From Glandiceps talaboti (lineage: Eukaryota; Hemichordata; Enteropneusta; Spengelidae), in NCBI RefSeq assembly GCF_964340395.1, contig NC_135569.1:12331019-12395018 (forward strand): a stretch of DNA of 64,000 bases. Reading direction: 5' to 3'. Numbering within the stretch: position 1 is the first letter of the stretch; each line of letters begins with the position of its first letter. Below, piece by piece: positions 12,037 to 53,758 of this stretch. The translations under genes were made by a program, and so were the position numbers. The notes beneath the pieces are model-generated. The model saw only the letters and a list, made by a program, of their open reading frames with translations. It had not been told where the DNA came from and ran no database searches.

Positions 12037-13555
12037 TTACGGCTACTTATGTTCCTGTAGGATGTACATTAATCGTACATAATAGTCACGTACGTATATT
12101 TACTCGTGCGACAATAAATACTCTGACACTTTTAAAGTTCAAAATGTTGTCATGTTGTGACTCATAGAAATAACCCTGATTCCTTCTACCCTTTAAATGC
12201 AAACAAAGCACGCTACCCTTTGAAAGAGTTGGTAATAAACCATGTATTTGAAACATATGCCAACAGGTTCATATTCTGTTATTATTTTGCAAGTCACTTT
12301 GTATTCAGTCGCACGGAATTGAACCTTTGGACTCGTGACATTTTGAGTAGTCAAGGAAATCGTGTCTTACTATTGTGAGGTGAAATAACAGGCTGCGTGC
12401 CCTCTGAAAAGTTTAATGTACCGTAGGCTACAACCTATTGGCATTTCTATGGCTTGGTGAAGCCCACGTACAGTAACTACCGTTAAGAATACAAATGACT
12501 GGATTTCTCCCCATTTAATTTGATGGCCTCAGGTCTTCGCCATATTTTTTATATTAAGAGGATATTCATAAAACGTAGTGTACAAAAATGAAAATAGTAC
12601 CTTCTTCTAGCCAACTAAAATCGGTGAATGGTTATTATTTCTCAATATACCTACTTCAACAGAACCTGGTGCAAAGTACAGGTGTGATCGACTTACAAGA
12701 TGGAATAATTTGAACCATTTTCGAATAAATGCTAAGCCGTAAAACGACGAGGGTGATGAAATGCGCAGTCACGGGTACGTCAAGAACGTCATAGTCATTA
12801 AAATGGTCAAATAATATAATATCTTTCGAGTCTGAATTATTCGAGTTATTATCTACAGTAAGAAGGTTTACACAGCGCTTGCGGTCAGTGTCCTGGCGGA
12901 CAATTTTCAACCATTGTGACTGTCAATATTTTTCTCGGGGAAAATGCCGTAAAAGAGCTTGTGGTTTTACGACATTTACGTCTTATATCTTGCTAAATTT
13001 TGTAAACAACTGACCCCAATGTGTTATCTCATTACACAATGGATGATGAACGTACAATATAAACAAAATGGTGGGCTGTGGAGGAGGGGCTTAAACACGG
13101 TCGAATATTTCTCCCTGATATCAATACATTTTGAAATGTTGTACTATTTATGGTGACGTCAGTGAACGAAGATAATGTATTCATCATAAATATTGAATCG
13201 AATGATTTTACTTTCATTGTGTTGTCATTCAGGTTGTAGTCTGCATGTTATTAAATTATGGCGGGATACTACCATTCCAATTTACTCAGAAATGAGATTG
13301 TACAGCATTTAATTTACTAAATCAGATTAAATATAATCTAATATTCTTTTGATGATATTTGATTATGGGTTCCAGAATTCCGGAACTTATACTTTCCAAG
13401 TTTCGTGGGTGGGGAGGGGGGGGGGGGTGTTAGCGAGGAGTGTCTAAAATGTAACATTTTCAGACTCATAGAAAAATATTAGATTTCGTTAACCAAGCCG
13501 ACCAGTTAGTAATTGGTTTGGTCATTTTTGAGCGGGAAAATGAAAACAGACTACA
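12037..13555. other. Intergenic or intronic DNA downstream of the GPCR exon
   Basis: This lies on the 3' side of the minus-strand GPCR and, because that exon ends in a splice donor, part of it should be intron. I looked for a TM7-coding exon on the minus strand and did not find one. A G-rich run is at about 13410-13428. Confidence 0.45.
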
Positions 13556-13560
13556 CTTAC

Positions 13561-14490
13561 CAAAACAACAGACCACGTGAGGTAGTACAGCAAAACAATC
13601 ACTGCCACTGTCTTTGCCATCCTCGTACATTTGTTGACGTTGACGGAATTCACCACCGCTGCCTGCACGACAGCATCACTTTCGCGTCTTAGGCAATTAT
13701 TGGTTGCCCTATCTCGAGCATTTCTTAGACCACGAAGAACGATTGATGTGTGATGTCTGTGCGAACGTGAATCGCTGAAAATTGTTGATCTGCGATCATG
13801 TCTTCGTTCTATAAATTTCCTCATTGAGAAAATGAACTCAATGTACGTGTACAATACAATCATGAACTGCAGGTAGCATACAGCCAAAACAACAGTTGCA
13901 TAGTTACTGGAATAGTCATATATGCAAAAGCCGTGATATTGTACAAACGATGACCAGTTTGTGAACGGAATGACAGCTATAATTGCACCCACTATCCAGA
14001 TGAACATCACGATGCGTTTGGCGCTGTATATCGTGAAACGAGTTCTATAAAGGATGGGTTTACGTAAAGCCAGGTAGCGATCTACTATCATTAATGTCAC
14101 TGTGGTGGTTGAAGCCAGACGAAACCACACGAATGTAAAAGCAAATATGCTGCACAACCAATCTGTGAGGGAGTATATCGTTAGTAAATCGTACACAGAT
14201 ATAGCAACCGTCGTTGTTGCAAACAAATAGTCCGAAAGAGCGAGAGAGAATATCCATACATCGGGAACGCTCAGAGACTTGAAACGGAAGACAGTGGCCA
14301 GCGTCAGGAAATTTGCAAAATTTGCAATGCCACCTGCAGATAGAAGAATACTCGCAGTCACAAGATCCTCAATGCTGTAACCGTCTGTTGTGTTGTTGAA
14401 TGCATTGCCTGGAAAATGTTCCTTGTCGTCGGTTGCCAAGTGACTGCATGTTGTCAAGCCACTGATGTTGATGTAGATGTCGCACCTCAT
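13561..14490 (-). CDS. Rhodopsin-class GPCR, prostanoid-receptor-like, first coding exon (TM1-TM6)
   Basis: The exon encodes 310 residues from the ATG at 14490 and ends in phase 0 at 13561, followed by the donor GTAAGT. Features by residue: sites for N-glycosylation at 8 and 32-33; TM1 about 44-68; TM2 about 78-100 with LALSD; TM3 about 111-136 with Cys113 and DRY at 137-139; TM4 about 160-177 with Trp165; extracellular loop 2 with VQYHGFCIYD (Cys189 probably disulphide-bonds Cys113); TM5 about 197-222; a basic loop rich in Arg, His and Ser; TM6 about 291-310. TM7 must be on another exon. Known prostanoid receptor genes have an intron at the end of TM6 and a QYPGTWCF-like loop 2, which this resembles; that assignment is inference. 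Another class A subfamily is possible. The plasma-membrane receptor role is secure, the ligand is not. Confidence 0.82.
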
Positions 14491-16200
14491 CTTGTTGTGA
14501 ACTTTAAAGAGTAATTTTTAACCTATTGCACATATGCCATAGAGGATGTTCTTGAAAGGCAATAACTAAATTGCAGAACTGTCACTTCACCTTTTACGAG
14601 AGTTGTTTTCGTAGTATTGATTGGAGTTCCCGGAATTTGAAAGAAAAGGTTTTATGTCCCGTGTAAATCAAGAAGTATACAACGTTAACGTAAATGAAAC
14701 GATTTCAAAGACATGTTACTTTGAGCATTTGAAGATGTTGTCGATTGAGATGCATATCACCTTTCTACTATGTTTGACGCCGTCAGGCTGCTGATAAGAA
14801 GATAGTTGGGCAATGCGCCACGTGAGCTCGTTTTCAACAGGTCTGCGGCTGCGTACATCTAACACAACCAACCGTTACTGTATGGGGTTTCACTAGCTGA
14901 CGTAAATCACGATACAGCTACGGAACTACGTTGAGTTTCGTTAATCCCCGCTCTCGTGACGCCAGTTCTTCGTACACCAATCAGCGGGTTTCACATATCC
15001 CACTGGTATGGAAAGTACATCCTAAAACTCGTGAGAGTTCGGCGTCGGTGAACGGGATAACACCGAATACAAATTCAACACTAGACAATTTATCTGGAGA
15101 CAGAATTTTCTTTTCGACTAAATCCTATGCAGCAAAAAAAAACGTTGACCTCCACACGCTCCTCGAAAATGATATGCATGATTAAGTAGCTCGTGTGAAA
15201 GTTAACACGTCATTGCGGTGTCTTTATACTTTTGTTGTTGACGTTGACAGGATAGCGTGTTACATGGTGGGAGTGTTACTTTGACAAACAAACTACGCTA
15301 TTCATACACATATCAGATATGAAATATGGAGTCGATTCACACTGTTCTTACAAATCTCATCAATATACACTGTCAAGATACCACATCCTGGCGGCTATGT
15401 GGCAACATGGTAGACTAGAGAATATGGATGGCAATCTCAATCTTTGTAAATGAATACTCACATCTGATGGTCAAGATGAGTTACTCTACACGTGGTCCTT
15501 TATGGTTCATCTTGAGATTGCAAATAGACGAAAGACGACAGAAGGCGCGTTTTTAATCTGTTTAGATTCTTTGTAGTCACTCATAATTATGTTATTTATG
15601 TCGCCCTACGTACATAAAACATATGTAGTTTACTGTTCCAAGAAATACAAGCACAAATGCACAAAGAAGTGCAGAGAATTAGAACAGCAAGGAGAGGGGG
15701 GGGGTATAGCCTGAAGACAAAGGAAAGAAATTACTACATGGTAAATTAAACCCTTTGCATGTCCCTGAATCTTCCTGTAGTGTAGACCAATGTCTTCTCT
15801 TTTCTGTGACCTTATATGGGAAGAAAAACAATACTTGCAATCTCTTCTGTCTGTAATAATGACTATATGCGCATCGGCCAAAACATTACAAAATCTCACA
15901 TCAAAAACATATTTGATGTACTAGTATGCTTTAGTTCAAGTGGAGATACAACATTAACGGTCTGTTTATAAATCCAATATTGATCTTAGCTTTCACTGTT
16001 GTGTGTGTATATATACTAAGGTTAAAATATCCGCTTCTCGATAATGGGAATGTAATATAACTACTATAATGGAGGCTCCCTAATCTTTGTTATCGTTTCA
16101 GCTAACAGTAGAACAAATTTATGTTTCCTTTCTACATTTTCTATATGCCATATTCAATGTATAATGACTATCTTCATGTGTAGTAGTTGTAACTTGAGTG
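14491..16200. other. Upstream region of the GPCR; no other gene seen
   Basis: This should hold the receptor's 5' UTR and promoter, or further upstream exons, but I see no clear core promoter motif. The 84-codon plus-strand frame at 14931-15185 is antisense to that region and has no recognisable domain. Confidence 0.4.
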
Positions 16201-26300: not shown

Positions 26301-29300
26301 TTTCTTGTGAGTCACCACATAGAAAGAGATAGGGGAACATTAAATTTTGGTGTGTTACTAGAAATTGTGTGCATGACTGTTACGTCAAATTGGCTTAGAG
26401 GGCACACTGCTTAGTATGAATTGTTTTATCAATTAAAATTCCCAGATAAATGGCCATATTGATACTGTAAGCTGAAGCTGTTCACTAATCACATTATCAC
26501 TTGTCTTTTCATCTGTAGTGACTGCCTTAGCTGTTGCATCAGTTGTGAGGAAAGCTCTCCGTGATAAGTTGGTCAACATTAAACATGAAGTCGAAGTTTT
26601 ACGGAAAGATCCCAATTCACCACTGTATTCTGTCAAATCTTTTGAAGAACTGCACTTGTAAGTATAAAAAAATACAAGAACTTGAAAATAACACAGATTG
26701 CAACTTTAGGTTTTAGTGGTTGCTTAATGAGGACTGCCACTCCAAGAAGTAAAGACATTTTCGTAAAAGTATGGGTTCTGGAGAGTCATTTCATGATTTT
26801 ACGTCACCTACAATTACAACTAAAACATCAAGGGATCGCCAAATGACTGTGCGTATCATACACATTTTATGTTCCCCAAGAACAATTTAGATAGATAAGA
26901 AACTGGCTTCTCATAGACCACTCAATACAAATATAAACAACATCATCCGACCCCCTACTGATAGTATACACAGACATGGACACATCGTCCTTGGAACAAA
27001 CACGTTATTGAAAGTCATCACATTGTAGGCTTAGATTTTAACACATACAAGTGTATTGATTCAAAGTTACAAGTGATATGTGTGTACACATACAGTGCCT
27101 GCTTGTCGGCAAGAGTGTGGTCTTGTTTATATTTGTATTGAGTGGTCGGTAGGAAGCCTGTTTCTTATCTATCTAAATTGTTCTTAGGAAACATAAAATG
27201 TGTATGATACGCACAGTTGCTCGGCAATCCCTCGATGTTTTAGCTGTACTTGTAATTTCAGAAAAAAACATCAAGTTGATCTTGTGTCTTTATAGGGTAT
27301 CTGTGCTACGGACAATTGTCAACAAAAATAATGTATTCATGGTTGAACAATGAATATTCATGACTCCTAAGTGTATTCCCTTCAGTGTAAAAGATCTCTC
27401 TTGAATATTAGCTCATTAATATAAAAATATGCAAATCAATTATGAACTGAACAGTCACACTGTACACCAGGGTAGGGAATTCAGGGCGTGCAAACAGTTG
27501 CGGTTCTTCATTACACAAGAGCTTTGGTACCTGTACCTATTGTTTCTTCTACGTAAAACTAACATGATGTCTTTGTCTTCATTTCCATACTACAGTGTTA
27601 AATAGAACTTTATTTGACTGTTATCGTATTTACAAGTTATCTCTTTGTTTTTGCAGGAGACCAGAACTCCTGAAGGGTGTGTATGGAATGGGTTTCAATT
27701 CTCCCTCCAAAATCCAAGAGACTGCCTTGCCAATGTTATTAGCTGATCCGTAAGTGCTAAGTTCTAACAGAGAATTACTAATAAAATGGATCATACATAT
27801 CAAGCAGTGTGGCCTGTAAGTCAGTTTGTCATGCCGCTAACTCAGGCCCAGGAACATGATTACAGAATCTGATGATAGGCTTGATAAGATCTGATATGAT
27901 TGGTTAATTTTGCCATGTGATATTTGAGGCCCCGGAACATGATTGCAAAATCTCATTGTTGGCTTGCTAAGATATGATTGGTTAATTTTGTCATGTGATG
28001 TTTGAGACCCAGGAACATGACTACAAAATTTCATTGTTGGCTTGGTAAGATCTGATACAGGGCTCGAAATTCGCGGTAGTCCCGCGTCCACAGACTACCA
28101 ATGTTTGTCTCTGGGCTACCAAATTATGTGAGTGGTAGCCCAGTTGGGCTACTAAGTTTTGAATGAAACTGTGACAGCCTGACTCCGATGCCTTCCCGGG
28201 GGCCTCCGAGGTCGCAGTCATGTGGGACCTGTTCTCCCAAAATTAGCGTCAAAATCAGTGCGTCTTTTCCAAATTTGCATCCACACTACATGTACACGAA
28301 ATACATGTACACTGTACACGTCATTCTTCCGTACATCGTACACACAGCTTGTACTTCCAAAATGTCACAACAAAACATTTATATGTAACAATATTCTGTA
28401 TAGCGATTTAATGTTATCTTTCTATACTTTCAATTTTCTATGGTAATCACTCTCTGGAAATATGATCTCTGGCCCGGGCCCTTTCGGCTCTTCTCAGAGT
28501 CTGAGTACAGTACACTCTCGGTACAGCATTGCAGTAACTAAATTCCATCACATGAATGACAGCTTTAACTTTCAACTTGACAGAGACACAGTTGTAATGG
28601 TGTTTGATAAAATCTTATGCTGCTGATGAGAATTAACTATACACCTGTCCTACAGATTCGTTTATTCTTGAACGATGCCTAAAACATTCCGTGTGTAAAC
28701 CACGCTTATGCAACCACAGAGAGCTTGCAGTGGTGAATGGTAAAATTCACGTAATGCATTTGATCTAGTAGTAGTAGCAAAGCTCAAAAGAAAGTTGAAG
28801 TTTTAGTGAGAATGAAATGGTGACGTGATGGTTTGAATTTATCTGAGTGAAGTTTTCACCATGGACCGTCTGCCGATGTGGTCTTAGACTCTGATTATCT
28901 CTTCGCCCATGAATGGAAGGGCCTTTGCCATAATGGCCGTCGTGTATTGATACAAAACCTGTCTAACCCGTCTGTTAATAAGTAACCAATTACGTGGATA
29001 GATAATGATAACAGCACATAGTTTCTAAACTACCCAAGACGTAGTCTCCACATCAGGAAATGGCCATGGGGCTTATGAAACTGTTTATACGTTTTCCATA
29101 CGTTGAATCATATTCAAATTTTACAGGTCTCACTGCACCAAGAGATTTAGCTAATAGTTACTAGTAAGAACTACGACTAGATGACTTATTCTTCATTGCA
29201 ATAATAACCGTACGTTGTTTGCTAACACTGTAACAGTAAGCCTCACATGTCCCCTCTTTATAACACGTCCTCAGAGACGCATACATGCAAAAAATTGCGT

Positions 29301-30061
29301 CCCCAATGTCAAATATGGCGTGAAATACACACAAATAACGCGTTAACGTGACTTCTCAAGTTATTCAATCAATCACCGAATTCAATATATCATATAGTTA
29401 CATATATACACAAACACCATTAATTTAGGAATGCATGCATATGGGCTACCAGTCACTGCTCTCGGGCTACCAAATTTAAATGATGGTAGCCCACCTGGGC
29501 TACCAAGAAAAAAAACGAATTTCGAGCCCTGTGATATGATTGGTTAATTTTGCCATGTGATATTTGAGGCCCAGGAACACGATTGCAAAATCTCATTGTA
29601 GGCTTGCTAAGATATGATTAGTTAATTTTGTCATGTGATGTTTGAGACCCAGGAACATGATTGCAAAATCTCATTGTTGGCTTGGTAAGATATGATTAGT
29701 TGATTTTGTCTTGTGATTTTTGTAGGCACAAGAACATGATTGTACAGTCACCACATGCTTTGTGATATATGATTGGTTCATTTTTTTTGTAGGCCCAAGA
29801 ACATGATTGCACAATCTCAGAGTGGTACTGGTAAAACAGCAGCTTTTGTACTAGCTATGCTGAGTAGAGTAGATACTACCACAGACTATCCACAGGTTAG
29901 TAGCAGCTTTTATGAAATGCACATTTACATATTCATTTCAGTTACTTTTATATATTTATTGATATACATGTATTTATTTTTAAGCCAATAGGTATACACA
30001 CAATTACAATCATTCTACATTCCACATATATATTTATTTATGTATTTATTTATTTATCTAT

Positions 30062-33100: not shown

Positions 33101-36006
33101 TGTAATGACTGTACATCTGATAGGAAGAAATAAAGCAACACAGAGATGTTGGGTGAACAACTTTCTGTGCTGATCAAGGGGACTTTGACCAGACTCTGGT
33201 TATAGAAACCACAGTTGGCATCCAGACTAGACGTAGAACGACCCGGGTACATAATCCGGATTTTCTGTTCAATGACAATATCTGGGCTTATGCATGGTGT
33301 AATAACTATTAATTGCTATATCAGTTTTCCAATAATGTAATGTCTTATGTTTTTTATCACACAGGAGACTGAATGAAAGAATTTGTCAAATGATGTTGTT
33401 CTCTGCCACTTATGATGAAGTTGTTATTAAGTTTGCACAAGGGATAATTCCAGACCCTAGTATTATTCGCTTACGTCGCGAGGAGGAGTCTTTGGATAAT
33501 ATTAAACAGTTTTACATCGAATGCAACAGTCAGGACGATAAGTTTGAAGCCTTGGCTAACATATATGGAACGGTTTCTGTCGGTCAAGCCATGATATTCT
33601 GTCATGTAAGTTGAACTTTGACCTTTTACTTACGACTATTTCTGTTGGCGAACCCATAATTATCTGTTATATGAGTGTTGAACTTCAACTTTGAACTTTC
33701 AATGATTTATATTAGACATGCGATGATTATTAATCATGTAAGTTGAACTTTAATCTTTAACTTGGAACTAAACCAGATTAGGGAGGCTATCAACTTCAAA
33801 TGTTACAATCCTAAGAGAGACGGGAGTGTCAAACTTCGTAACATCTATACTCGGGTGATCATATTCCAATGTCAATGTGTGTATGTGTACATATCAGAGT
33901 ATATGTTTCAGTATTGAGGCATGCTGATTACATGCTAATCAGAATGCAAACCAATATACAAATTATCTTGTTATTTATATGTAAATTAATATGCAAATTA
34001 GTTGTCATCCTTGCAGTCTTGCCTTGGAAGAACACTGGCTTTAAATTTAAATAAAGTTTAGATTATTTGAGACTATACCAACACCTCATTTTCTATGTGT
34101 AGACCAAGAGAACTGCTGCCTGGCTTGCAGAGAAGATGTCAATAGAAGGGCACGCTGTAGCCTTACTAACTGGAGACTTGACTGTTGAACAACGTGTAGC
34201 GGTACTTAACAGATTTAGGGATGGTAAAGAAAAAGTACTTATTACAACAAATGTAGCTGCACGAGGTAAGAACAGATCCATGAGCATTTCAACTTGAAGC
34301 CACAATTTTGGATCAGTGTATGAAATACATGTATGCAATGTGTATCTAAAGAGAAACAAAACAAATTAATGGGGAGGGGGGGGGGGGGTGAAACACTAAA
34401 AAAAACTTGTTTTCTTGTGAGTCACCATATAATATGGAATAAGGGAAAACCAAAGTTTGATCCATCATGTGAAATTTCGTGCATGAGTGGCATTAAAAAG
34501 GGAACACTAAATTTTGGTCCATCACTTGAAATTTTGTGCATGAGTGGCATAAAAAGGGAAACCACTTGAGGAAATTAATGCATTTTCATAAAGTATTGGT
34601 TCTCCAGAGTCATTTCATGTTTTTCCATCACCTACAATAACTTGAGATTTCAGAGTTATCACCAAATAGGAACAAGGGAACACCAAATTTTGGTCCATTA
34701 CAAGAATTTTTTGTGCATCAGTGGCCTTAAAGAGGAACACAACTCCATTAAATAGAGACATTTTCATAAAGTATCGGTTCTGGGGAGTCATTTCATGATT
34801 TTACATCACCTACAATTACTTTCCAATTCAGAGAGACATCAAGTTGATCTTGTGCCTTTATAGGGTATCTTTGCTATTGGCCATTTCTTTTATGGTAGTC
34901 AACAGAAATAATATATTCATGGTTGAACAATGAATATTCATGACTCCTAAATGTGTACTCCCTTCAGTGTAAAACATCTCTCATGAATATTCAATTTCAG
35001 ACTTTTATTTCACTCAATGATGTATTATTATTAATATTGTGTATTATATTTATTACAGGAATAGATGTTGAATCAGTTACAGTGGTTGTTAATTTTGATA
35101 TTCCCGTTGATGTCAACGGACATGCAGATTGCGATACATATCTCCATAGAATTGGTAGAACAGGTAGATTCGGTAAATCAGGATTGGCCTTGAACATGGT
35201 GGACGGAAAACGAGCTCTGTTGCTGATGAGAAAAATTGAAGACCATTTTGGTAAGATTTACTATAAACATTTATTTACAACTGCTGACATCAGACCATGG
35301 ACGAACGGAACCTGTTACAAACGAGGAAAGTAAACAAATGGTCTTATCAACAATTTGTTTACAATTAAACATCAGGGAGTGAAAGATTACACTGTGATTA
35401 ATAGAGAAACTTGCTGCTTGTAGGTAGTTTTAGCACAGCTTGAGACAGACTAAGAGATACAGTTGGTTGAACATTGTAGTAGGTAGTTTTAGCACAGCTT
35501 GAGACAGACTAAGAGGTACAGTTGGTTGAACATTGTAGTAGGTAGTTTTAGCACAGCTTGAGACAGACTAAGAGGTAGAGTTGGTTGAACATTGTAGTAG
35601 GTAGTTTTAGCACAGCTTGAGACAGGCTAAGAGGTAGAGTTGGTTGAACATTGTAGTAGGTAGTTTTAGCACAGCTTGAGACAGGCTAAGAGGTAGAGTT
35701 GGTTGAACATTGTAGTAGGTAGTTTTAGCACAGCTTGAGACAGTTGGTTGAACATTGTTGTATTTGTCTTACCTCAAGCCATATATGCAGTTATGGCATT
35801 GTAAGGGTTAACACAACTTCACAGGGACACTCGGGTGCAGTACAAATAGCAGCCATATTTCAATTTACGACTTTCATTTAGAGAAATAAAGTATTTATTA
35901 TTATGTGTCACTCACGTACCTAACATTGCTTCATTTTACAGGACGGAAAATTGATAAACTTAGGGCTGACGACATGGAGGAGATTGAAAAGATAGCAGAG
36001 CAGTAG
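23387..36006 (+). CDS. DDX19: ATP-dependent RNA helicase DDX19 (Dbp5 orthologue), complete
   Basis: Eleven exons join in frame to 535 codons: 23387-23449, 25275-25530, 26519-26657, 27657-27749, 29793-29895, 30203-30317, 31956-32133, 33365-33605, 34103-34265, 35059-35250 and 35942-36006. All introns are GT-AG. DDX19/Dbp5 remodels mRNPs on the cytoplasmic face of the nuclear pore during mRNA export, stimulated by Gle1 and IP6. Motifs by residue: Q motif GFNSPSKIQ 165-173, motif [11 protein letters not shown] 190-199, Ia PTYELA 224-229, GTPGT 270-274, DEAD 296-299, SAT 329-331, [11 protein letters not shown] 444-453, [10 protein letters not shown] 480-487, and the C-terminus [30 protein letters not shown] is characteristic of DDX19. 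The N-terminal extension (about 110 residues, Gly-rich then Ala-rich) is longer than in the 479-residue human protein. The start fits: [14 protein letters not shown] resembles vertebrate DDX19 starts. All catalytic motifs are intact. Confidence 0.97.
23950..24386. mobile_element. Element with mirrored arrays of CAACTCGGCCCA (DDX19 intron 1)
   Basis: Six copies of CAACTCGGCC, mostly followed by CAC or TAC, lie at 23952-24050. Six copies of the reverse complement GGCCGAGTTGG, some degenerate, lie at 24287-24384. Between them is about 230 bp of unrelated sequence. The whole is a large inverted repeat made from short tandem units, as in non-autonomous DNA transposons with iterated ends. No clear target duplication or coding region. 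Confidence 0.75.
24683..25037. mobile_element. TA-flanked palindromic MITE, copy in DDX19 intron 1
   Basis: About 355 bp palindrome. The left arm reads GAGGATTAGATGTTTATTTT then CCAAGTCTGTGTTTGTAACT. The centre is TTGTTATTGTACGTACAATA. The right arm mirrors the left (AAGGACTTGGCATATGTTG, ATCCTCATCCATATGGCCAC) and ends CCACTT followed by TA. The same family is at 56559-56965 and 25925-26215. Confidence 0.85.
25925..26215. mobile_element. TA-flanked palindromic MITE, diverged copy in DDX19 intron 2
   Basis: Same layout as 24683-25037: left arm with GCCATATGGATGACAAATGC, centre GCTATTGTACGTACACTAAC, right arm with ACAAGGACTTCATATATC. It is more diverged and its right end is eroded. Confidence 0.75.
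26227..26411. mobile_element. GTGTGCCCTCTAA short inverted-repeat element, copy 1
   Basis: About 185 bp between AGTGTGCCTTCTAATGATAG and CTTAGAGGGCACACT, giving inverted ends of about 13-14 bp. The interior is shared with 30728-30892 and, inverted, 61226-61392: GCCAAATTTTGTTG, TGTGAGTCAAAATGAG, CTTGTGAGTCACCACATAG and ACTAGAAATTGTG. It is non-coding and lies in DDX19 intron 2. Confidence 0.8.
26753..27425. repeat. TGAATATTCATG-family repeat split by a MITE (DDX19 intron 3)
   Basis: The left part is 26753-26816 (TTTTCGTAAAAGTATGGGTT to CACCTACAATTA). The right part is 27247-27425 (TTGTAATTTCAGAAAAAAAC to TGAATATTCATGACTCC and beyond). Removing the insert restores the order seen at 17206-17400. 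Confidence 0.75.
26817..27246. mobile_element. 430 bp MITE with about 120 bp terminal inverted repeats and TA target duplication
   Basis: The ends are CAACTAAAACATCAAGGGAT and the reverse complement of CAGCTAAAACATCGAGGGAT. The arms match for about 120 bp, including GTGCGTATCATACACATTTT and AACAATTTAGATAGATAAGA. TA lies directly outside each end (26815-26816 and 27247-27248), as for Tc1/mariner-type elements. It splits a dispersed repeat in DDX19 intron 3, so it is younger than that repeat. No coding content. Confidence 0.85.
27836..29792 (+). repeat. Tandem array copied from the DDX19 exon 5 acceptor region, with an insertion
   Basis: Units of about 78 bp, three at 27836-28057 and three at 29532-29792, each carry a version of GGCCCAAGAACATGATTGCA, the first bases of exon 5 (29793), plus the intron sequence before it (TGATTGGTTAATTTT). 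Most copies have lost the acceptor (TTTGAGGCCC for TTTGTAGGCCC), but the last one at 29721-29726 still reads TTTTTGTAG. The exon-like part corresponds to the segment encoding [15 protein letters not shown] transposon (28058-29531) separates the two halves. Confidence 0.85.
28058..29531. mobile_element. 1474 bp non-autonomous DNA transposon (ends CAGGGCTCGAAATTCG)
   Basis: Terminal inverted repeats of 16 bp, CAGGGCTCGAAATTCG and CGAATTTCGAGCCCTG. A 5 bp direct repeat, TGATA, lies on both sides, and the neighbouring array unit shows the uninterrupted form AAGATCTGATATGATTGG. Subterminal GGGCTACCAAA/TGGTAGCCCA repeats occur at both ends. I see no transposase-like frame. The family is uncertain (hAT-like ends, but the duplication is 5 bp rather than 8). 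Confidence 0.85.
30025..30107. repeat. (TTTA)n microsatellite (DDX19 intron 5)
   Basis: About 20 TTTA units lying shortly before exon 6. Confidence 0.95.
30546..30705. mobile_element. Half copy of the TA-flanked palindromic MITE (DDX19 intron 6)
   Basis: Right arm only: ATAACAAACATTTTACACAT, AACAAGGACTTGGCATATG, GCCATGATAAAATT and a truncated end with CAATGGCCACC. Confidence 0.75.
30728..30892. mobile_element. GTGTGCCCTCTAA short inverted-repeat element, copy 2
   Basis: Ends GTGTGCCCTCTAACGATAGC and GGCTTAGAGGGCGCA. Same orientation and interior as 26227-26411; about 165 bp. It lies in DDX19 intron 6 directly after the half MITE. Confidence 0.85.
31150..31498 (-). mobile_element. SINE, tRNA-derived head at the right end (DDX19 intron 6)
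   Basis: On the minus strand it starts with TAGTTAGAGTGACTGGCTTG (box A-like), then TTGGTACTAGTCTTGCTCC. It shares its body with 53041-53390: GGACTTGGTAGGATA, AATGTTTTAGTCCTATGCTT and ATACTGCAATAGACTGGATG. Its tail contains AATTGTAAAGTGTTTTAAGT and GTGCTATATAAACACTAC. No coding capacity. Confidence 0.7.
31499..31772. repeat. Dispersed repeat, inverted partner of 36482-36748
   Basis: CACCTCCACTCAC, TGAGATGCAT, ATTTAAAATTTATCCACAGC, TGTCTTTGTTAATCAATCAC and CAAATATGGTATATTTGTC recur in reverse order and complement at 36482-36748. About 270 bp, non-coding. Confidence 0.8.
32176..32217 (+). repeat. G-rich tract (possible G-quadruplex)
   Basis: Alternating runs of two to seven G separated by single T over about 42 bases on the sense strand of DDX19 intron 7, just after exon 7. 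Confidence 0.8.
32214..32400 (+). mobile_element. SINE tail fragment (DDX19 intron 7)
   Basis: ACTCTTGGAGTAGTGAC, GGTGGTATGT, GACTGAGAAAGCCTTG and CAACATGAATATGAACATAC match, in order, the body of the minus-strand SINE at 61560-61865. The tRNA-like head is missing. Confidence 0.55.
34400..34740. repeat. Fragments of the GTGTGCCCTCTAA element interior, repeated
   Basis: Three partial stretches (about 34405-34495, 34500-34565, 34660-34740) carry TTGTGAGTCACCATATAAT, GGGAACACTAAATTTTGGTC and CATGAGTGGCATAAAAAGGG, resembling the interior of 30728-30892 without its ends. A G run lies at 34378-34388. Confidence 0.55.
34760..35000. repeat. TGAATATTCATG-family repeat (DDX19 intron 9)
   Basis: Nearly complete, uninterrupted copy: GTATCGGTTCTGGGGAGTCA, TACATCACCTACAATTACTT, AGAGACATCAAGTTGATCTT, TTTATAGGGTATC, and TGAATATTCATGACTCC. 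An extra fragment of its start lies at 34588-34650. It serves as an empty site for the MITE at 26817-27246. Confidence 0.75.
35420..35759. repeat. 59 bp minisatellite (DDX19 intron 10)
   Basis: About six near-identical units beginning GTAGGTAGTTTTAGCACAGC and ending TTGGTTGAACATTGTA. The last unit has an internal deletion. I see no relation to either flanking exon. Confidence 0.93.
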
Positions 36007-42316: not shown

Positions 42317-45300
42317 TTACTCATCTTTTTCTTCCAGGTAAATAACAGTTTGATGTGCAAGATTTGATTCCTCTATAGTCTGATTCAGGTTTGTAAATAC
42401 TTTCCGTGGCACATCATTAACGAACATTTCACACTCCAGTAACGTTTCTTCACTCCGTGAATCGGCATATGCAAGGATTTCTTTAAGTGTGTTACTTGGA
42501 CGGAAAAACCTTTGAAGTCGTTCTCCTTCTGGTAATCGTATGGCGAGTAAAAGTCTATCATCCTTTTCACTAGGTTCGTCAGGAATTGCAACGCTTAATT
42601 TTGCTCGGTCGAGTCTTTCTTTTTGTTTGTGTCTAAAGTGTCTACGCGATACTTTCTTTGTCGGAGATGGTATTGCTTGGGGTGGCTCTACAGCTGGTGG
42701 ACTTTGCAAATTTTGATTTAAGTCTTCTGTGCTCTTATTTGACATGGTTTGATGATCACTTTGGACGGAGTCCTGTTTTCCTAGATTACGCATTGGCTGT
42801 GTTTCGGTATCACCATGTGAATTCAGTGCAAAATTCAACTCTCCATCTGGTCCTTCATAGTAGTTCTGTGTCAAACCTTTCTCAAAACTTGGCACATGAT
42901 TATCGTCAATACCTATCATTTCAGACTCGCTGTCCATTTCATTCTCATGAATATCCATATACACATCATCATGAATATTCATATATGCTAATTCCTGAGA
43001 CAAGTTTACTTGTTCACTGCCTCTAGTTGTAGTATTTTTTCTTATACTAGGCAGCGGTGTGTATCTTGATAACGATGAACTTGGTCTTGATGGTGGGGCG
43101 TTATTCAGAATTTTTTCAATTGCACTGTCAGGATCAGAGTCATCGTGATGGGATTGTTTTTGTGATCTGTAGCCTGACGTTCCTGGTCTTGATCTGCCTT
43201 TGGCAGATTTTGGTCTGGTTTTTGGTCTTGAATTGTAGGAGTTCTCTGGACTCACTGGAGGTGTCCTCCCCGGTGGTAAACCAATAGATCGACTTGTTCC
43301 TGGTCTGCTAGGAGGTCTAGACACTGATTCTGTAACAACAAAATGATATTAATTATAAAGATATGATTTGTCAATCTGACTCACTGGCGTTCTCGTAAAT
43401 GGGGTAGGCCGATAATTCACGGCACCATGACAAAAGTGTGTTTCCGTTAACGAAGCCTTAGAAAATATGGTTAGGTAGCTTGGGATCTGATGTAATTTTT
43501 TATCTTTTTAGTTGTTGCTTCGACCCAAAAACAAAATGTCGGTCTGAATACCCCTTTTGTGACAGTTTGATAGAAATATGTACTGCCATCACTGGGGAAA
43601 GAAAACAGACATACATGAAGGTCAAGAAGACAAAGAATTTCTCATTTTTTTGTTTTAAATCTTTAAAAAAATGTTTATGGTCTGTGGTTTAAACTAGGAT
43701 CGGTCGGGTTATCAGAAACATCCAATTTTTTTTACATTTTATCAAACAAATCCTACAGACAACAGTGATATGTATAAAAATGTCTTGCTGGTATCTCCAT
43801 TCCTAAAATAACTTGTCACTTGGCAACACTTGTATTGTACACAAATACCTATGTTAGACAATAAATATCCCAATATGAGTACTTGGAGCTAAAAACCAGA
43901 TAATCCAATATGATAAAAGAGATTAAAATGAACCACTTGAAACTTAAATCCTAGATTTACAGATTCGTTGTTATGGCCATTCCTTATCACTCAGTTGTAT
44001 CGCAATCGATGGACATAGGTCAGTACTGAAAACATGTTATTAGCAAACTGAGATAGACACAAACTAAAACTTTCATTATTGATTGGTAGACAGGGTTGTC
44101 AGTGGCCGAGTGGTTAAACCACTTGCCTCTTACCACTATGGTTGGGGTTCGAACCCATTCAGGGTTTGATTAAATTTACCACGCTGTAAATAAGAAGAGT
44201 GTCGTTCATTTTAACTTAACCGAATAACGCAGGTTTTCTCCGGGTACTCCGGTTACCAACCAGCACAAATGTATGGATGCATTGTTCACATGTTTCAAAC
44301 TAGAAGTTTGTTATATGTATACTTCTGCAACTGCATTATCTGATGTAACAATGTAGCCCCAATTACATGCTTGTGTGCCTCTGTGACTTGACTGTGACAG
44401 TCGATGACTCACCATGGCCAAAAAGAATTTGTGTCACATAATACGTCGGGACAAAAAAAGGCACAAAAACAGATGAAAAAGCCCTCAAAATCACATCAAA
44501 CGCTACAATTATTGCAGCTAGTTCAAGGTAGGAATTCCATACTATTATTCATAGTAATGTGTAGTAACACACATATAAATATGTCTACATCTCTATCTCC
44601 CCACTATACTCAATTTGTGTTGCTAACTCATTGACCATTTTAATACTGTGATTTTTATTTTTTTTTAAATGAAATATGATAATGTCATTATATAATGACT
44701 CATGATAATGTAATTATTTATTCAAATGCATTTTATTGTTATACTATCATTATAATTTATAGTGGCAATAAGCAGGTATACAATAATACTACTAGGTTCC
44801 TCATACTGAAGGTCACACACACTACTCAACTGAATGAGTAAGCATGAATTGACAATAAATATTGTTAATGGTTATTTAGTGTGAGAGTGGATTGTGTATA
44901 ATGTAAATGACTGTGTTCAAGTATGTCATCTAGAATATAAACCGGATTCTAAAGTTAAAATTTAGACATGCAACTATCAAATTGATATGATCAATTTGTG
45001 GCACGCTGTTAGTTTGGTGGCCAACTCCTTGTGAACAAGGCATGGAAAGGACTGTTGTAACTTGAATTGGAGTATGGTTCCAGACTACGGCAATACTAGC
45101 CATTGTATTACAACCTCAAGAAGTTCTGTACATCTGTGGTGGGGAGAGCTTCTTGAGGTAATAATATCACCGAGTCTTTGGGTTATGATACTGTGCCAAT
45201 AGCATGACAGATTTTTTTGTTGTTTTTCCTGTTATAATCTATACAAATACCAAACCAAATACAGACAATAACATTTACATTCATGAACACTTGACTAGCT

Positions 45301-46156: not shown

Positions 46157-48752
46157 ATGCTTGAAGATATATTGCACGGAAAAGAGTCGTCACGTCTTGT
46201 GATTGTGTTCGGTAAGTTATATCGCCCAAGTTTCCGACAGTATTGTCCGTAAATCGATTTGTTTCGATGTTTGTGTATGTTCTTTGGCGCGAGTACTAGC
46301 GCAGCGTAGTGACGAAACAAAACAAAGGAATGAATGAAAGTTGAATCGAGAACAACCATGTCGATATGATGTGAATAATACTAAATCCTCAAATAGTAGA
46401 AGATGTAAGCACTAGAAGCAACTGATGTAGATGAAAAGAAATGTGAACACACAGACATGATCGTGCATTGCGAAATCGAGGAGTTCCTAAAAATCAGTTT
46501 TCCATGCCGTTTGCAGAACATGTATTCTTTTTTTAAGCCATTGTAAACAAATATCAGCGTGTAAAAAGATGAATGCAGTGCAGTGCACAGCAAACTGGTG
46601 AAGCAGCAGTGGTATTAGCAGTAGACCTAACAGAGAAGGTTTCCTAGTTTGTGTATGTGTTTCGATACATTATTTGCATTTTTCACATAGAAAAATATGT
46701 TGTTTTTTTAGCTCGCTTATATTTAAAAAAAAATGTATGTCAGATACCGGGATAAAAGAAAAACTGGTGCACTTTCTGTATCAGTATTAGATAAAAGTTC
46801 AAATTGTGATTTTGTTTTTAAATTTTCACAATCGAATCCAATTTACAGAGATGTCCTTTGACATCAAGGTTGGCAAATCTTTGAAGCAAAACTCAAGAGC
46901 TTTTCATGGAATTATTATTATTAGTGTGAAGTGAGACATTGTTACTGTTGAGTATCATTTTCATTGTGAGGCATGCATCATGCTAGCTGCAATATTTGTA
47001 GCTTTGTTTTCATTTACAATACTTTTTTTATTCTTTTTTATATTTTATTTTGTGTGACTTAACATTTTTCGTTTTTTATTTTTTATTTTTATTTTTATTT
47101 TTTTTTTTTTACGGGGTTTGCACAGAAAATAGGGAGTCACAGAGTGAAACCGCTACAGTTACTGCAGTTGGCATCATGCTTTCTTTGTTGGGGTAGACCC
47201 CATCTCTCCCCTTGAGGCTTGTAAGGAGATATTCCAGTATACTAATACTGTATATGTTAGGGAGATATCCATGCAATAACAAGATTTTCATGCATATGTA
47301 AAATTCTAAAGAATAAAAAATGCATGTGAAGGAAAGACACATGAAATATGAATAGAACTTGATGTAAATAGATTGAAAATTACAGTTAATCTCTCTCTAA
47401 ATGTCATATATTTTTGCGTTTTTATTAGCCAGATGTGTAAAGGACACATAGATTTGAGTGAAATAAAACATGTAATACCATGTGTGTGTGACAGAACCTG
47501 TGATGTATTAGTGCAAGTATGGCCTACATAGAAATTCCTACTAATATTTGCGCAAGTGCTTGCAGTGATCGTATGTTAATGAGCATAGAAAGTGAAAGTG
47601 CAACAAAAAACACTGCAAGTACAATTGCAAATATCTTGGTGTACACAGGCAGTTACGTGTTACGGGGTTCTGTTATTATTACATAATTTTGTCCAAAACA
47701 GCAAATTCTGTAGAAATGGTACACTACAATCGTGTACTTTTGTGTACTAGGCACACTCATTTGCATATCATTTGAATACAGGTATGTAATAATGTTTTGG
47801 TATTGCACTGCAGTGCACACACCACTAGCAATAGCATCATCTGCATGTATTCATACTGGTGCAAGTAATCACTGGTACATATGTAATGATATACTATTAT
47901 ATTGCATGGAAATTAATTTTGATTAAAATAATGATTTGTTGATATTCGATTATTAAAAGCCAGGTGGTAATGCACCATCACCAATTAAATATGGTAATGC
48001 ATTATCATATAACTCTAATGGAAGTCAGACATGTTGTAATATTATCTATTAAGAATTTACCTTTCTATTGACCATGCAGATGATGTTTAGTTATATGAAT
48101 AAAGTAAACTGTGTTTTAGTAAGGGTGGTAAGCAGGTAAAATCTACCGAGGTCTCCCAGGGTTCTCAAACAAAATTATGGTAGATTGTATGGAAAAACTA
48201 TGCAATGTTCACCCCTTTCCCCTTTCTGTTACCGGGGTTCCCCAACTAAAAAAGTACATATTGATATTATGCATTTTAAAAATTAAGATAGCGCATCGTT
48301 GTCAGTGCAGTAAGGTCGTATCTGATATACAATTGTACAGGAGATACAACCTTACTGCACTGACGCGACGATATATGCCTATATTATAGTTGACTTATAT
48401 TCATCTATTACTTATTGTTTACAGATAGTCTCAAACATTTTGGTCGCACACTTCTCAAGAGTTTTACCAAGTCCTTAGCCTCCAGGTAAGTGTTGTCAAC
48501 TTTTTATATATACATGTACATGATCTTTGTCTTCTTCAGCATTTGCACATTTATAGACTTTATAGTGTTCATCTGTGGAGAACTTAGTGACCAAGTCATT
48601 GGGATTTTGCATACTAATATGCTAATTTGCATAACAGTAGCATTGTTGTATCAATGTTTTTGTTTTGATTGTTTGATTGATTGCCTGCTTTATTGATTGC
48701 TTGATTGATGATTAATTAATTGATTACTTTATTTATGTATTTATTTGTGTAC

Positions 48753-48795
<43 letters not shown>

Positions 48796-51700
48796 TTTTC
48801 CAGAGTTGATGAAGTCCACATATTTCACTTTGATACTGCACCTGAAGTCTTCCGGACTGGTTTTGATGAGATCACAAAAACTAAACTACACAGTCATGAT
48901 GGCTGGTCAGATCCATTAATGTGGAGGTAAGTACAGCTATGAAATTACAAAATCTAAACTAGACAGTCATGATATCTGGTCAGATCCATTAATGTGGAGG
49001 TAAGTACAGCTGTGAAATCATGCAAAAACTAAACTAAACAGTCATGATGGCTGGTCAGATCAATTAATGTGGAGGTAAGTACAGCTATGAAATTACGAAA
49101 TCTAAACTATACAGTCATGATGGCTGGTCAGATCCATTAATGTGGAGGTAAGTACAGCTATGAAATTACAAAATCTAAACTGGACAGTCATGATATCTGG
49201 TCAGATCAATTAATGTGGAGGTAAGTACAGCTATGAAATTACAAAATCTAAACTGGACAGTCATGATATCTGGTCAGATCAATTAATGTGGAGGTAAGTA
49301 CAGCTATGAAATTACGAAATCTAAACTACACAGTCATGATATCTGGTCAGATCAATTAATGTGGAGGTAAGTACAGCTATGAAATCACACAAAAACTAAA
49401 CTGGACAGTCATGATATCTGGTCATATCAATTAATGTGGAGGTAAGTACAGCTATGAAATTACAAAATCTAAACTATACAGTCATGATGGCTGGTCAGAT
49501 CCATTAATGTGGAGGTAAGTACAGCTATGAAATCACACAAAAACTAAACTGGACAGTCATGATGGCTGGTCAGATCCATTAATGTGGAGGTAAGTACAGC
49601 TATGAAATCACACAAAAACTAAACTGGACAGTCATGATATCTGGTCAGATCCATTAATGTGGAGGTAAGTACAGCTATGAAATTATGCAAAAACTAAACT
49701 AAACAGTCATGATGGCTGGTCAGATCCATTAATGTGGAGGTAAGTACAGCTATGAAATCACACAAAAACTAAACTGGACAGTCATGATATCTGGTCAGAT
49801 CCATTAATGTGGAGGTAAGTACAGCTATGAAATTACAATATCTAAACTATACAGTCATGATGGCTGGTCAGATCCATTAATGTGGAGGTAAGTACAGCTA
49901 TGAAATTACAAAATCTAAACTAGACAGTCATGATGGCTGGTCAGATCCATTAATGTGGAGGTAAGTACAGCTATGAAGTCACACAAAAACTAAACTACAC
50001 AGTCATGATGGCTGGTCAGATCCATTAATGTGGAGGTAAGTACAGCTATGAAATCACTCAAAAACTAAACTAGACAGTCTTGATATCTGGTCAGATCCAT
50101 TAATGTGGAGGTAAGTACAGCTATGAAATTACAAAAACTAAACTACACAGTCATGATATCTGGTCAGATCCATTAATGTGGAGGTAAGTACAGCTATGAA
50201 ATTACAAAATCTAAACTAGACAGTCATGATATCTGGTCAGATCCATTAATGTGGAGGTAAGTACAGCTATGAAATTACAAAATCTAAACTAGACAGTCAT
50301 GATATCTGGTCAGATCCATTAATGTGGAGGTAAGTACAGCTATGAAATTACAAAATCTAAACTACACAGTCATGATATCTGGTCAGATCCATTAATGTGG
50401 AGGTAAGTACAGCTATGAAATTACAAAATCTAAACTATACAGTCATGATGGCTGGTCAGTGGTTTGATCATATATGGGAACATATTTCTTTTATTGGATA
50501 TGTATACATTTTCTTAAATATTTACATACATGTGTGATCTTTTATCATTTTTCAGGGAAACACCCAAGCCAGCTGATGCCGATAACAAACTGTACTTATC
50601 AGAGCCTTTAGATCTTATGTCACATATCAGAGAGCATAAACAGGCCAGTAGTAGGAAAGTAGCAGTCATTGTGGATTCTCTTACTCCTGTTCTCGTCCAC
50701 AAATCTCTACCGTTTGTTTGTAAAGCCTTGTATCAACTGTACAATAGCGAAGATGATGTCGAAGGTTGGTGTAAATATGCTGTAGACCTGGAAATTTTTG
50801 CTAATGACTTACTTTCCCTTATTTTGCTTGAAATACAAAAATGCCCAAATAAGTAATGACTATATAAATGTCTTCTTGTACATGAACACAATATACCAGT
50901 CTGGTAATTAGTGAAAATAAGTAGTGACTAAAATACCTTCTTGTACATGAACACAATGTACCAGTCTGGTAATTAGTATAAATAAGTAGTGACTAATTTA
51001 TGTATTTTCATAAACTTTCAGTTCTGGAGTCATTTAATGATGTTCCCTCTCATAATTTTCACTTTGTAAACCAAGAAACACCAAATTGAAACACTTTTTA
51101 CGTCTATTGTTCTTTCACTGATACACCATTGCATGATGGGTCTTCTCAGACATGAATATTTATTAGATGTACATTGAATATTCATGACTTCTAAGAGCTT
51201 ACTTCCTTCAGGTAAATAGTCATGAATATGAGTACACAACTGAGTGAAAATCATAATCAGTAAATGGAGTCGTGGGATCTGGGGCACCTGTTGTGTACAT
51301 ACTTTGATAAGTTACCAACACTAATTATATTGTATGTCTTTGCATGGAATTTGTCTCATTCCAGGTTACCACAAGCAAACAAACGCACCAGTGTTTTTTC
51401 ATGTGTTGTGTATCAATATCGTTATTTCTGAATCCTAATATATAATGTTATGTTTCGGTAAACAAGTAATGTCTACTTTTTTGTAGGTTTTGAAATTATT
51501 CAGACCTTATGTTTAGTACACGGGGATGTCCACGATGAACGCGTTCTCAGTTCATTACAACACATTGCATCAAGTACCCTAGCTCTCACACCCAATGCTT
51601 CAATAGCATCATTCCATGAAGAACCCTATGGATTCTCCAACACAGTACATAAAAAGTCAAGTGGTAAAGTTATCATCAAGGTAAGACACTGGTTGGCAGA

Positions 51701-53758
51701 ATAATAATAATTGTACACTCAATGTACATGTATATGGTAGTCATTTCAAAATTGATCATTCAATCTATGTGTTAGTCACTTCAAAATTGATCATTTTCAG
51801 GGTGATCAATAAATATGCAATCCATGTGGTAATCATTCAAAGTTGATCAATGAATACACTCAATGTATTCTCACTGTATATATGTTCATTTTACAGAATG
51901 AGGGATACAGTGTTGTTGATGATCTTCGACTTATAACATTTGATCCATCTAAACTGTCAACACCTACAGTCAAACGACAAGCAGGTGTAAGTATACCAAG
52001 TAATGTCTTCCACTACATATAATGTAGTGACCAAAATCAAAATGCATTGTACATACTACATGCATTGTACATATTACATGACATACTACATACATTGTAC
52101 ATACTACATACATTGTACATACTACATACATTGTACATACTACATGACATACTACATACATTGTACATACTACATACATTGTACATACTACATACATTGT
52201 ACATACTACATACATTGTACCTACTACATGTACATACATTGTACATACTACATACATTGTACATACTACATACATTGTACATACTACATGCATTGTACAC
52301 ACTACATGCATTGTACATACTACATATATTGTACATAATACATACATTGTACATACTACATACATTGTACACTCTACATACATTGTACATATACTACATA
52401 CATTGTACATACTACATGCATTGTACACACTACATGCATTGTACATACTACATACATTGTACATACTACATACATTGTACATACTACATACATTGTACAT
52501 ATACTACATACATTGTACATACTACATACATTGTACATACTACATACATTGTACATACTACATACATTGTACATATACTACATACATTGTACATACTACA
52601 TACATTGTACATACTACATACATTGTACATACTACATACATTGTACATATACTACATACATTGTACATACTACATACATTGTACATACTACATACATTGT
52701 ACATACTACATGCATCTCTCTGCCCTCAGCGGCCTGCTCTATATAAGAAATGAGTTAGGGGTTGACCGATGTGTGAGGGCAGCCTGCCATGGCATACCTT
52801 GCAGACTATAACTTAGCTTGTGTGCATCATAATAGCTTTTTAATGTTTTATTGACATTAACTGCATTTCTCTCATTAATATTTACAGCCTGACCCAACAG
52901 CAAACTTGACCTTTAACCTCAATCTAACAGATACTGAGAGACAAGCAAGGAGTAAAGTGATACTACCTTATACCATCGCTCAGGAGAAGTAAGTTCTGAA
53001 CTTTTTTCATATTTCCACGATACTGTTAGTTTTTGTTGTGCTTTCCCCCACTATGCCCAAAGCAACGTACAGTTAATACCCCTTGCATGGACCTATAACA
53101 GCACAAGAATCCATTATACTTCTTGAACCCCCTGAGGAGCCTACAATCCGTTGCAGTGTATGTAAGTGCATAGGATTAAAGCATTCACATTGAGACTGAT
53201 ATCCTACCAGGTCCCCAATTATGCAGCTGGTTGAACTGAGGCACAGTCGTTGTTCAAATCTTGCCCAAATTAAGGACTTTAGCCATTTTGAAATAAAAAT
53301 GGCAGAAGCAAGGCTTGAACTAACAAGCATCTTGAAGATTCCAAGCTGGCCACTCTAACCATTCAACCATCATGCCATGACTCCACAACCAGCAATGTAC
53401 AGATTACAAGCCAGCCACTCTAACCATTCAACCATCATGACTCCACAACCAGCAATGTACAGATTACAAGCCAGCCACTCTAACCATTCAACCATCATGA
53501 CTCTACAACCAGCAATGTACAGATTACAAGCAAACCCACTCTCTCTTATCAACCATCATGACTCCAGGTTTCACGTCTTCATCAAGAGAGAAAAAAATCT
53601 ACTTCACTGTCAACATTTTCAGGAGCAGTTATTTACTCTTTTGTTGCCTTTATCTATACAGGAGGATGCCACAGTTGAAATCTGGTCAGATTTTTTATGA
53701 ACCAGACGAGGCGGATGATTTTGATGACGAAGACCCTGACGATGACCTTGACATCTAA
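46157..53758 (+). CDS. ELP5: Elongator complex protein 5, complete
   Basis: Eight exons join in frame to 309 codons plus stop: 46157-46211, 48425-48485, 48804-48926, 50556-50764, 51487-51680, 51897-51986, 52888-52988 and 53662-53758, all GT-AG. ELP5 forms the Elp4-Elp5-Elp6 ring of Elongator, needed for cm5-type modification of tRNA wobble uridine U34; its fold is RecA-like without a working P-loop. Diagnostic parts are VFDSLKHFGRTLLKSFTKS at the N-terminus, HFDTAPEVFRTGFD, VAVIVDSLTPVLVH (the VTIALDSL segment of human ELP5), NLTFNLNLTDTERQARSKV-like residues (read here as LTFNLNLTDTERQARSKVIL), and the acidic tail FYEPDEADDFDDEDPDDDLDI, nearly identical to the human end. Length is close to human (316). 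Introns 3, 6 and 7 are filled by tandem repeats. Exon 6 must end after GCAGGT (51986), since the alternative donor two bases earlier gives a stop. Confidence 0.97.
46212..48424 (+). other. ELP5 intron 1
   Basis: AT-rich intron of 2.2 kb. Besides the hairpin at 48295-48372 and the GGTAAAATC-type segment at 48130-48245, I see only T-rich tracts around 47020-47110. Small open frames in it have no recognisable domain. Confidence 0.6.
48295..48372 (+). other. Strong 78-base hairpin in ELP5 intron 1
   Basis: The arm ATCGTTGTCAGTGCAGTAAG (continuing GTCGTATCT) pairs with the arm AGATACAACCTTACTGCACT (continuing GACGCGACGAT) around a loop of about 18 bases. The stem is about 29 bp with few mismatches. 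It could be a microRNA-like precursor or a very small palindromic transposon remnant. No sequence family is recognised. Confidence 0.55.
48728..48799. repeat. (TTTA)n microsatellite next to the ELP5 exon 3 acceptor
   Basis: ATTT/TTTA units run right up to the TTTTCCAG acceptor of exon 3. Confidence 0.92.
48871..50458 (+). repeat. Tandem array of the ELP5 exon 3 end plus its 5' splice site, about 21 units
   Basis: The unit is 73-75 bp: about 56 bases from the end of exon 3 (from ATCACAAAAACTAAACTACA through CATTAATGTGGAG) plus the donor and early intron, GTAAGTACAGCTATGAA. I count 21 occurrences of GGAGGTAAGT, the first being the true donor at 48926/48927 and the other 20 lying in intron 3. 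A 22nd unit is cut off after GATGGCTGGTCAG at 50458. Units fall into two classes, GATGGCTGG (as in the exon) and GATATCTGG, mixed along the array. The array fills nearly all of the 1629 bp intron. Confidence 0.97.
52044..52711. repeat. 18 bp minisatellite (ELP5 intron 6)
   Basis: About 35 units of TACATACATTGTACATAC with TGCATTG variants and occasional 20 bp units. TTGTACAA-like palindromes recur each period. Long frames across it (Thr-Tyr-Ile-His-Cys or Met-Tyr-Val-Cys) are artefacts. Confidence 0.95.
52722..52806. mobile_element. Short GTGTGAGGGC element, copy 2 (ELP5 intron 6)
   Basis: Shares GCCCTC, CGGCCTGC, GGTTGACCGATGTGTGAGGG and GGCATACC with 59132-59220 in the same orientation. It abuts the minisatellite. 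Confidence 0.5.
53041..53390 (-). mobile_element. tRNA-derived SINE (ELP5 intron 7)
   Basis: On the minus strand the head is TGGTTGAATGGTTAGAGTGG (box A-like), then TAGTTCAAGCC (box B-like). The body matches 31150-31498 (GACCTGGTAGGATATCAG, CCTATGCACTTACATACACT, GTAGGCTCCTCAGGGGG). The tail ends in TTGCTTTGGGCATAGTGGGG. It is inserted antisense to ELP5. Confidence 0.78.
53377..53565. repeat. 60 bp tandem repeat grown from the SINE head (ELP5 intron 7)
   Basis: Three units of ATGACTCCACAACCAGCAAT, GTACAGATTACAAGCCAGCC and ACTCTAACCATTCAACCATC. The last 30 bases of each unit are the box A end of the adjoining SINE, so the array arose by repeated duplication across the SINE-intron junction. Confidence 0.88.

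Follow-up and report, generated by a model that had tools for sequence, protein, structure and literature searches.

A minisatellite across an exon-intron boundary of ELP5 places 20 extra copies of a 5' splice site in intron 3 of an acorn worm gene

The ELP5 gene and the array in its third intron

The window analysed here is a stretch of 64,000 nucleotides (64 kb) from Glandiceps talaboti, to which all coordinates refer, and it holds gene models for ELP5 and its neighbour DDX19. The coding region of ELP5 occupies 46157-53758 on the plus strand, where eight exons (46157-46211, 48425-48485, 48804-48926, 50556-50764, 51487-51680, 51897-51986, 52888-52988 and 53662-53758) join into a spliced frame of 309 aa that is free of internal stops. 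The predicted protein contains the Pfam Elong_Iki1 domain and its closest protein, among the best 120 of 360 matches passing the cutoff, is the G. talaboti elongator complex protein 5-like isoform X2 with 99% identity, so that the name ELP5, which a sequence-only reading had given to this gene, can be retained. Two residues that the model has where exon 6 ends (51977-51992) are missing from isoform X2, and this probably reflects an alternative donor, as a GC donor (CAA/GCAGGT) six bases upstream of GTAAGT would account for the difference. Intron 6 carries an 18-bp CATTGTACATACTACATA array (52045-52715; 37.2 copies according to TRF) that starts 59 nt past the end of exon 6 and does not span the boundary. 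Elsewhere in the window, the minus strand has two further open frames, one encoding 343 aa and containing a UBX domain (42317-43348; PF00789), the other a rhodopsin-family receptor frame (13522-14517; PF00001).

Exon 3 (48804-48926) ends in the donor GAG/GTAAGT at 48926/48927, with a TAA at 48928-48930, and the acceptor of intron 3 lies ahead of 50556, all of which had been placed correctly from the letters. This donor is the first of 21 GTAAGT sites located at 48927-50403 on the plus strand, with spacings of 73 bp (12/20) or 75 bp (8/20) and no others. TRF reports a single array at 48866-50459 with a period of 73, 21.6 copies and 92% matches, close to the limits of 48871-50458 proposed earlier. 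The array begins within the exon: unit 0 (48866-48938) takes in 61 nt from the end of exon 3 and 12 nt from the start of intron 3, and is followed by 20 full intronic copies (48939-50414), 12 of 73 bp and eight of 75 bp, a copy number that is taken from one assembly. Each of them repeats the exon-like end and GTAAGTACAGCT, giving decoy donors at 49000, 49075, 49148, 49221, 49294, 49367, 49442, 49515, 49590 and 49665 and, further downstream, at 49740, 49815, 49888, 49961, 50036, 50111, 50184, 50257, 50330 and 50403. The 22nd copy (50415-50459) is partial and breaks off ahead of its donor, and GTAAGT, present in 20/20 full intronic copies, is missing from this truncated one only. A unique tail of 96 nt (50460-50555) completes the intron and carries the acceptor (TTTTATCATTTTTCAG). 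The 24-mer ATTAATGTGGAG/GTAAGTACAGCT around the donor (the slash marking the exon-intron junction) is exact in 21/21 copies, against a chance expectation of 0.00 (100 shuffles), and the claim of 20 additional exon ends with donors behind the real one therefore stands. All copies of this core lie within the array; no further match was found in the 64-kb window on both strands with up to 3 mismatches, which within these 64 kb speaks against a reading of the unit as a scattered satellite. Searches against Rfam at gathering thresholds gave no structured-RNA match in 48000-51400.

Comparison of the copies revealed 17 variable columns out of 75. Two unit classes can be distinguished among the 20 full intronic copies, eight of which carry GATGGCTGG and 12 GATATCTGG, in line with the two classes described earlier; the GATGGCTGG class also includes the copy in the exon and the partial one at the array's end. 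Copies 1, 18 and 19 are identical to each other, as are copies 4 and 5 and copies 10 and 12, and the GG/AT and CC/CA variants occur in each of their four possible combinations, which is consistent with the exchange between copies that the sequence-only reading had proposed. The occurrence of identical non-adjacent copies together with mixed variant types is suggestive of a recent expansion with exchange or conversion. Since the exon copy is separated from all 20 intronic copies by a single column, which is private to it, expansion or conversion appears to be recent. Distant copies are no less identical than close ones, which lends no direct support to a model of strictly local exchange. In its exonic part the unit encodes HSHDGWSDPLMW and the start of R, and as this stretch is conserved in ELP5 of Ptychodera flava, the unit contains ELP5 coding sequence.

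Splicing consequences and choice of donor

With the first donor, the spliced frame reaches its first stop at codon 310, and with each of the 20 later donors it stops at codon 81, so that the expected immediate stop applies to 20/20 decoys. A stop codon upstream of splice junctions leads to nonsense-mediated decay, and because five junctions of the ELP5 model lie downstream of codon 81, decay of such transcripts is expected. The annotated G. talaboti ELP5 protein, possibly based partly on homology, reads ...MWRETPK over the junction of exons 3 and 4 and thus fits use of the first donor, as foreseen by the suggestion that this site wins by position; regular splicing may persist.

The repeated donor, GAGGTAAGT, matches the consensus donor at 8/9 positions and is the second best of the seven ELP5 donors. 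It had been argued that the decoys are indistinguishable from the real donor by local sequence. Their local sequence is indeed equal, but the argument does not extend to position, as donor 1 alone lies 123 nt from the real acceptor of exon 3 with unique exon sequence in between. Predicted accessibility (RNAplfold) places donor 1 fourth lowest of 21, and we discarded the idea that the decoys are hidden by structure, since the prediction does not favour the first site. Donor 1 is instead set apart by being nearest to the exon 3 acceptor (123 nt), by being transcribed first and by being the only one preceded by unique exon 3, and we infer from this that it would win through exon definition. Against exon definition, donors 2 and 3 would yield exons of 196 and 271 nt, lengths that need not be beyond its reach. 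In addition, the last donor (50403) would leave an intron of 153 nt, where the seven ELP5 introns measure 216-2213 nt, and as it is nearest to the 3' site, a proximity rule would favour it.

The array has donors but nothing that resembles an acceptor. None of its 108 AGs has an upstream pyrimidine fraction above 0.50, compared with 0.60-0.80 at the seven real ELP5 acceptors, and the sole AG of intron 3 exceeding 0.50 is the real acceptor in the unique tail. The units can therefore not easily become cassette exons, and a cassette or micro-exon reading was ruled out (0/108). Nor is there a new functional intron between the copies: the ELP5 model has one intron over the whole array.

Boundary duplications in the neighbouring DDX19 gene

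The DDX19 model comprises nine exons and 428 aa, with the N-terminus outside the model, and is 100% identical over 428 aa to the G. talaboti DDX19A-like protein. All 30 intron-flanking exon boundaries of the ELP5 and DDX19 models were scanned for similar duplications. With probes spanning the boundary (30 shuffles per boundary), 4/30 exceeded the preset mark. With exon-only probes of 36 nt (200 shuffles each), similarity was prominent at 3/30 boundaries, namely the ELP5 donor 48926 (z 20.0), the DDX19 acceptor 29793 (z 9.0) and the DDX19 donor 33605 (z 5.3), and the remaining 27 had z values of at most 2.5; the maximum in 66 internal-exon control comparisons, which were placed at steps of 20 nt and, overlapping one another, do not count as independent, was 3.49. 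Of the four, the acceptor of ELP5 intron 5 (51897) was dropped, its exon-only z of -0.1 being at the level of chance and its alignment rich in gaps. The DDX19 donor 27749 and acceptor 30203, at z 2.5 each, fall within the range of the controls.

The acceptor-side array of DDX19 (27846-29792, plus strand) lies in intron 2 of the model and contains copies of an intron end plus exon start, arranged as six decoys and the real site in repeats of roughly 78 bp. The exon-like parts of the decoys start at 27846, 27929, 28007, 29569, 29647 and 29726, ahead of the real acceptor at 29792/29793. The AG is kept in 6/6 decoys, the same six being found whether or not the search pattern required it, and use of any of them would introduce a stop (6/6). 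Between the third and the fourth decoy lies a DNA-transposon-like insert of 1474 bp (28058-29531), with CAGGGCTCGAAATTC/GAATTTCGAGCCCTG as its terminal inverted repeats and TGATA flanking it at either end; an exact search for these termini gave no further copy in the window. As the insert divides the array in two, the array probably predates it. The donor-side duplication (33570-33770, plus strand) lies in intron 6 of the model at the real donor 33605/33606 of the sixth exon and has decayed, with one degraded copy at 33639-33698 that has lost its GT and another at 33701-33770 that keeps GTAAGT at 33738. At all three boundary arrays, the one in ELP5 and the two in DDX19, the copy adjacent to the exon is the one used in the gene model, with which the annotated protein agrees. 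The three arrays also suggest an order in age, with one fresh, one decayed and one probably older than its transposon-like insert.

Origin and meaning of the ELP5 array

The original Adh paper on mirages is reportedly that of Canestro and co-workers. In PMC3087553, mirages are minisatellite-like duplications of exon-intron boundaries, at donors or acceptors, known from globin genes of amphioxus and, before that, from Adh3; PMC3902484 adds troponin C and PGBD5. Adh3 data and RT-PCR of globin transcripts suggest in the former paper that regular splicing is undisturbed, although the length of mirages varies, and its authors consider that the copies could act as cryptic sites. The sequence-only reading knew of no named element of this kind, and the name supplied by these passages corrects it. 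Like the amphioxus mirages in Adh3, BflGb6, BflGb9, troponin C and PGBD5, as described there, the ELP5 array consists of tandem, minisatellite-like copies (TRF period 73, 21.6 copies) of a unit that spans an exon-intron boundary (61 nt of exon and 12 nt of intron) and repeats the splice signal. It differs in its host, an acorn worm rather than a lancelet, in its 20 decoys, where two amphioxus BflGb6 haplotypes are given 6 and 3 units in the text of PMC3087553, and in that the donor is kept in all full copies, whereas AG/GT is not present in every copy of the amphioxus globin mirages in the same text. The number and perfection of the decoys, the hemichordate host and the two further cases nearby make this array unusual. 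In our literature search, which included acorn worms and hemichordates, the name 'mirage' in this sense was met for amphioxus only; since most subscription journals lay outside its scope and few queries were directed at hemichordates, this is weak evidence of absence for mirages beyond amphioxus.

Related phenomena are on record. Intron gain by tandem duplication (the AGGT model of Rogers), for which PMC4974935 lists potato RdRp and vertebrate ATP2A1, likewise involves a duplicated segment bearing AG/GT, but the ELP5 copies sit inside an existing intron, lack acceptor tracts and have created no new intron in the model. Human segmental duplications contain internal tandem repeats at exon-intron boundaries (PMC2812944) that resemble the ELP5 array as minisatellite expansions at such boundaries; these repeats can alter transcripts of recent paralogues, whereas the annotated ELP5 protein is unaltered and the gene encodes a core Elongator subunit. 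In C. elegans, intronic minisatellites have been linked to splicing (PMC4039745), and competition between donors is a well-known subject, with Hodson 2012 and Eperon 1993 cited in PMC8724738.

In our view the ELP5 array is very probably a mirage, that is, a tandem duplication of about 73 bp across the boundary, spread by exchange, of which only the exon-adjacent donor is used and the intronic copies are spliced out. The route by way of duplication is the one we infer: tandem duplication of a segment of about 73 bp across the boundary of exon 3 and intron 3 would have started the array, and the resulting minisatellite would then have been enlarged and mixed through exchange between copies. The donor in use would be that of the one copy continuous with the remainder of exon 3, and the 20 intronic copies would leave with the intron. 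Most likely the array is tolerated rather than selected, because the exon-adjacent site wins.

An alternative that had been raised from the outset is that the array tunes ELP5 output, with some transcripts using decoy donors to yield stop-bearing mRNA that is degraded, such that array length sets the level of expression. The decoys look competent for such a role, as 20/20 keep the 8-of-9 match to the consensus and 20/20 lead to the stop at codon 81, and cryptic-site use of mirage copies is allowed for in PMC3087553. Evidence for selection on the donor core depends on how variation is counted: the longest invariant run (24 columns, comprising the core) has a P of 0.01 if the 17 variable columns are taken singly, but the nine donor positions alone give 0.085, and P is 0.05-0.07 when linked columns are grouped into 13 events, a grouping of our own, so that significance is lost once columns are grouped and we regard selection on the core as unsupported. 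Recent expansion also accounts for uniform copies with no need of selection, amphioxus mirages are reported to leave regular splicing intact (PMC3087553 and PMC3902484), and intron 3 is devoid of AATAAA and ATTAAA. Tuning of output found no positive support; regulation by the decoys is possible but unsupported, and we consider it improbable. Somewhat less improbable, if still unlikely, is that the array represents an intermediate in intron lengthening or intron gain, in which the boundary duplication supplies sequence from which new exons or introns could arise. Each full unit does contain AG/GT, a model of this kind is proposed for the globin mirages in PMC3087553, and a plant case arose from duplication over one boundary (PMC4974935). 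However, the ELP5 units have no acceptor-like tract (0/108 AGs above 0.50) and offer donors only at present, and intron gain fits the mirage explanation if taken as an eventual outcome and not as what the array does now.

Miscounting by the assembler, with far fewer copies in the true genome, is another account, given that tandem arrays are prone to it and that PMC3087553 mentions a mirage mis-assembled in the draft of B. floridae. Yet 17/75 columns vary in irregular order, which would be unexpected had an assembler multiplied a single block, and DDX19, with its diverged boundary copies, shows that this genome does contain duplications of the kind, which makes an assembly error very unlikely. 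U1 snRNP at intronic donors suppresses premature polyadenylation, a process known as telescripting, and twenty strong U1 sites within 1.5 kb could serve as a landing platform for it. We give this hardly any credence, as the plus strand of intron 3 contains no AATAAA or ATTAAA to be suppressed, whereas such signals do occur in introns 1, 5 and 7, which have no donor array.

Together with the two DDX19 cases, the ELP5 array, read as a mirage, suggests that mirages exist in hemichordates. They may even be frequent in hemichordate genomes, the product of a process, deuterostome-wide or at least shared by hemichordates and cephalochordates, that multiplies splice sites and lengthens introns; with 3/30 boundaries in the two genes examined as its basis, we put this forward tentatively, as a prospect with the odds somewhat against it. 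The ELP5 array is a natural form of the classic competition test, in which a single pre-mRNA from a conserved gene presents 21 5' splice sites with the same 24 nt around them, and for which exon definition predicts use of the first donor and a proximity rule use of the last (153-nt intron). If mirages are indeed frequent, these genomes would rely on a rule by which the exon-adjacent site wins, and which is able to ignore 20 identical competitors.
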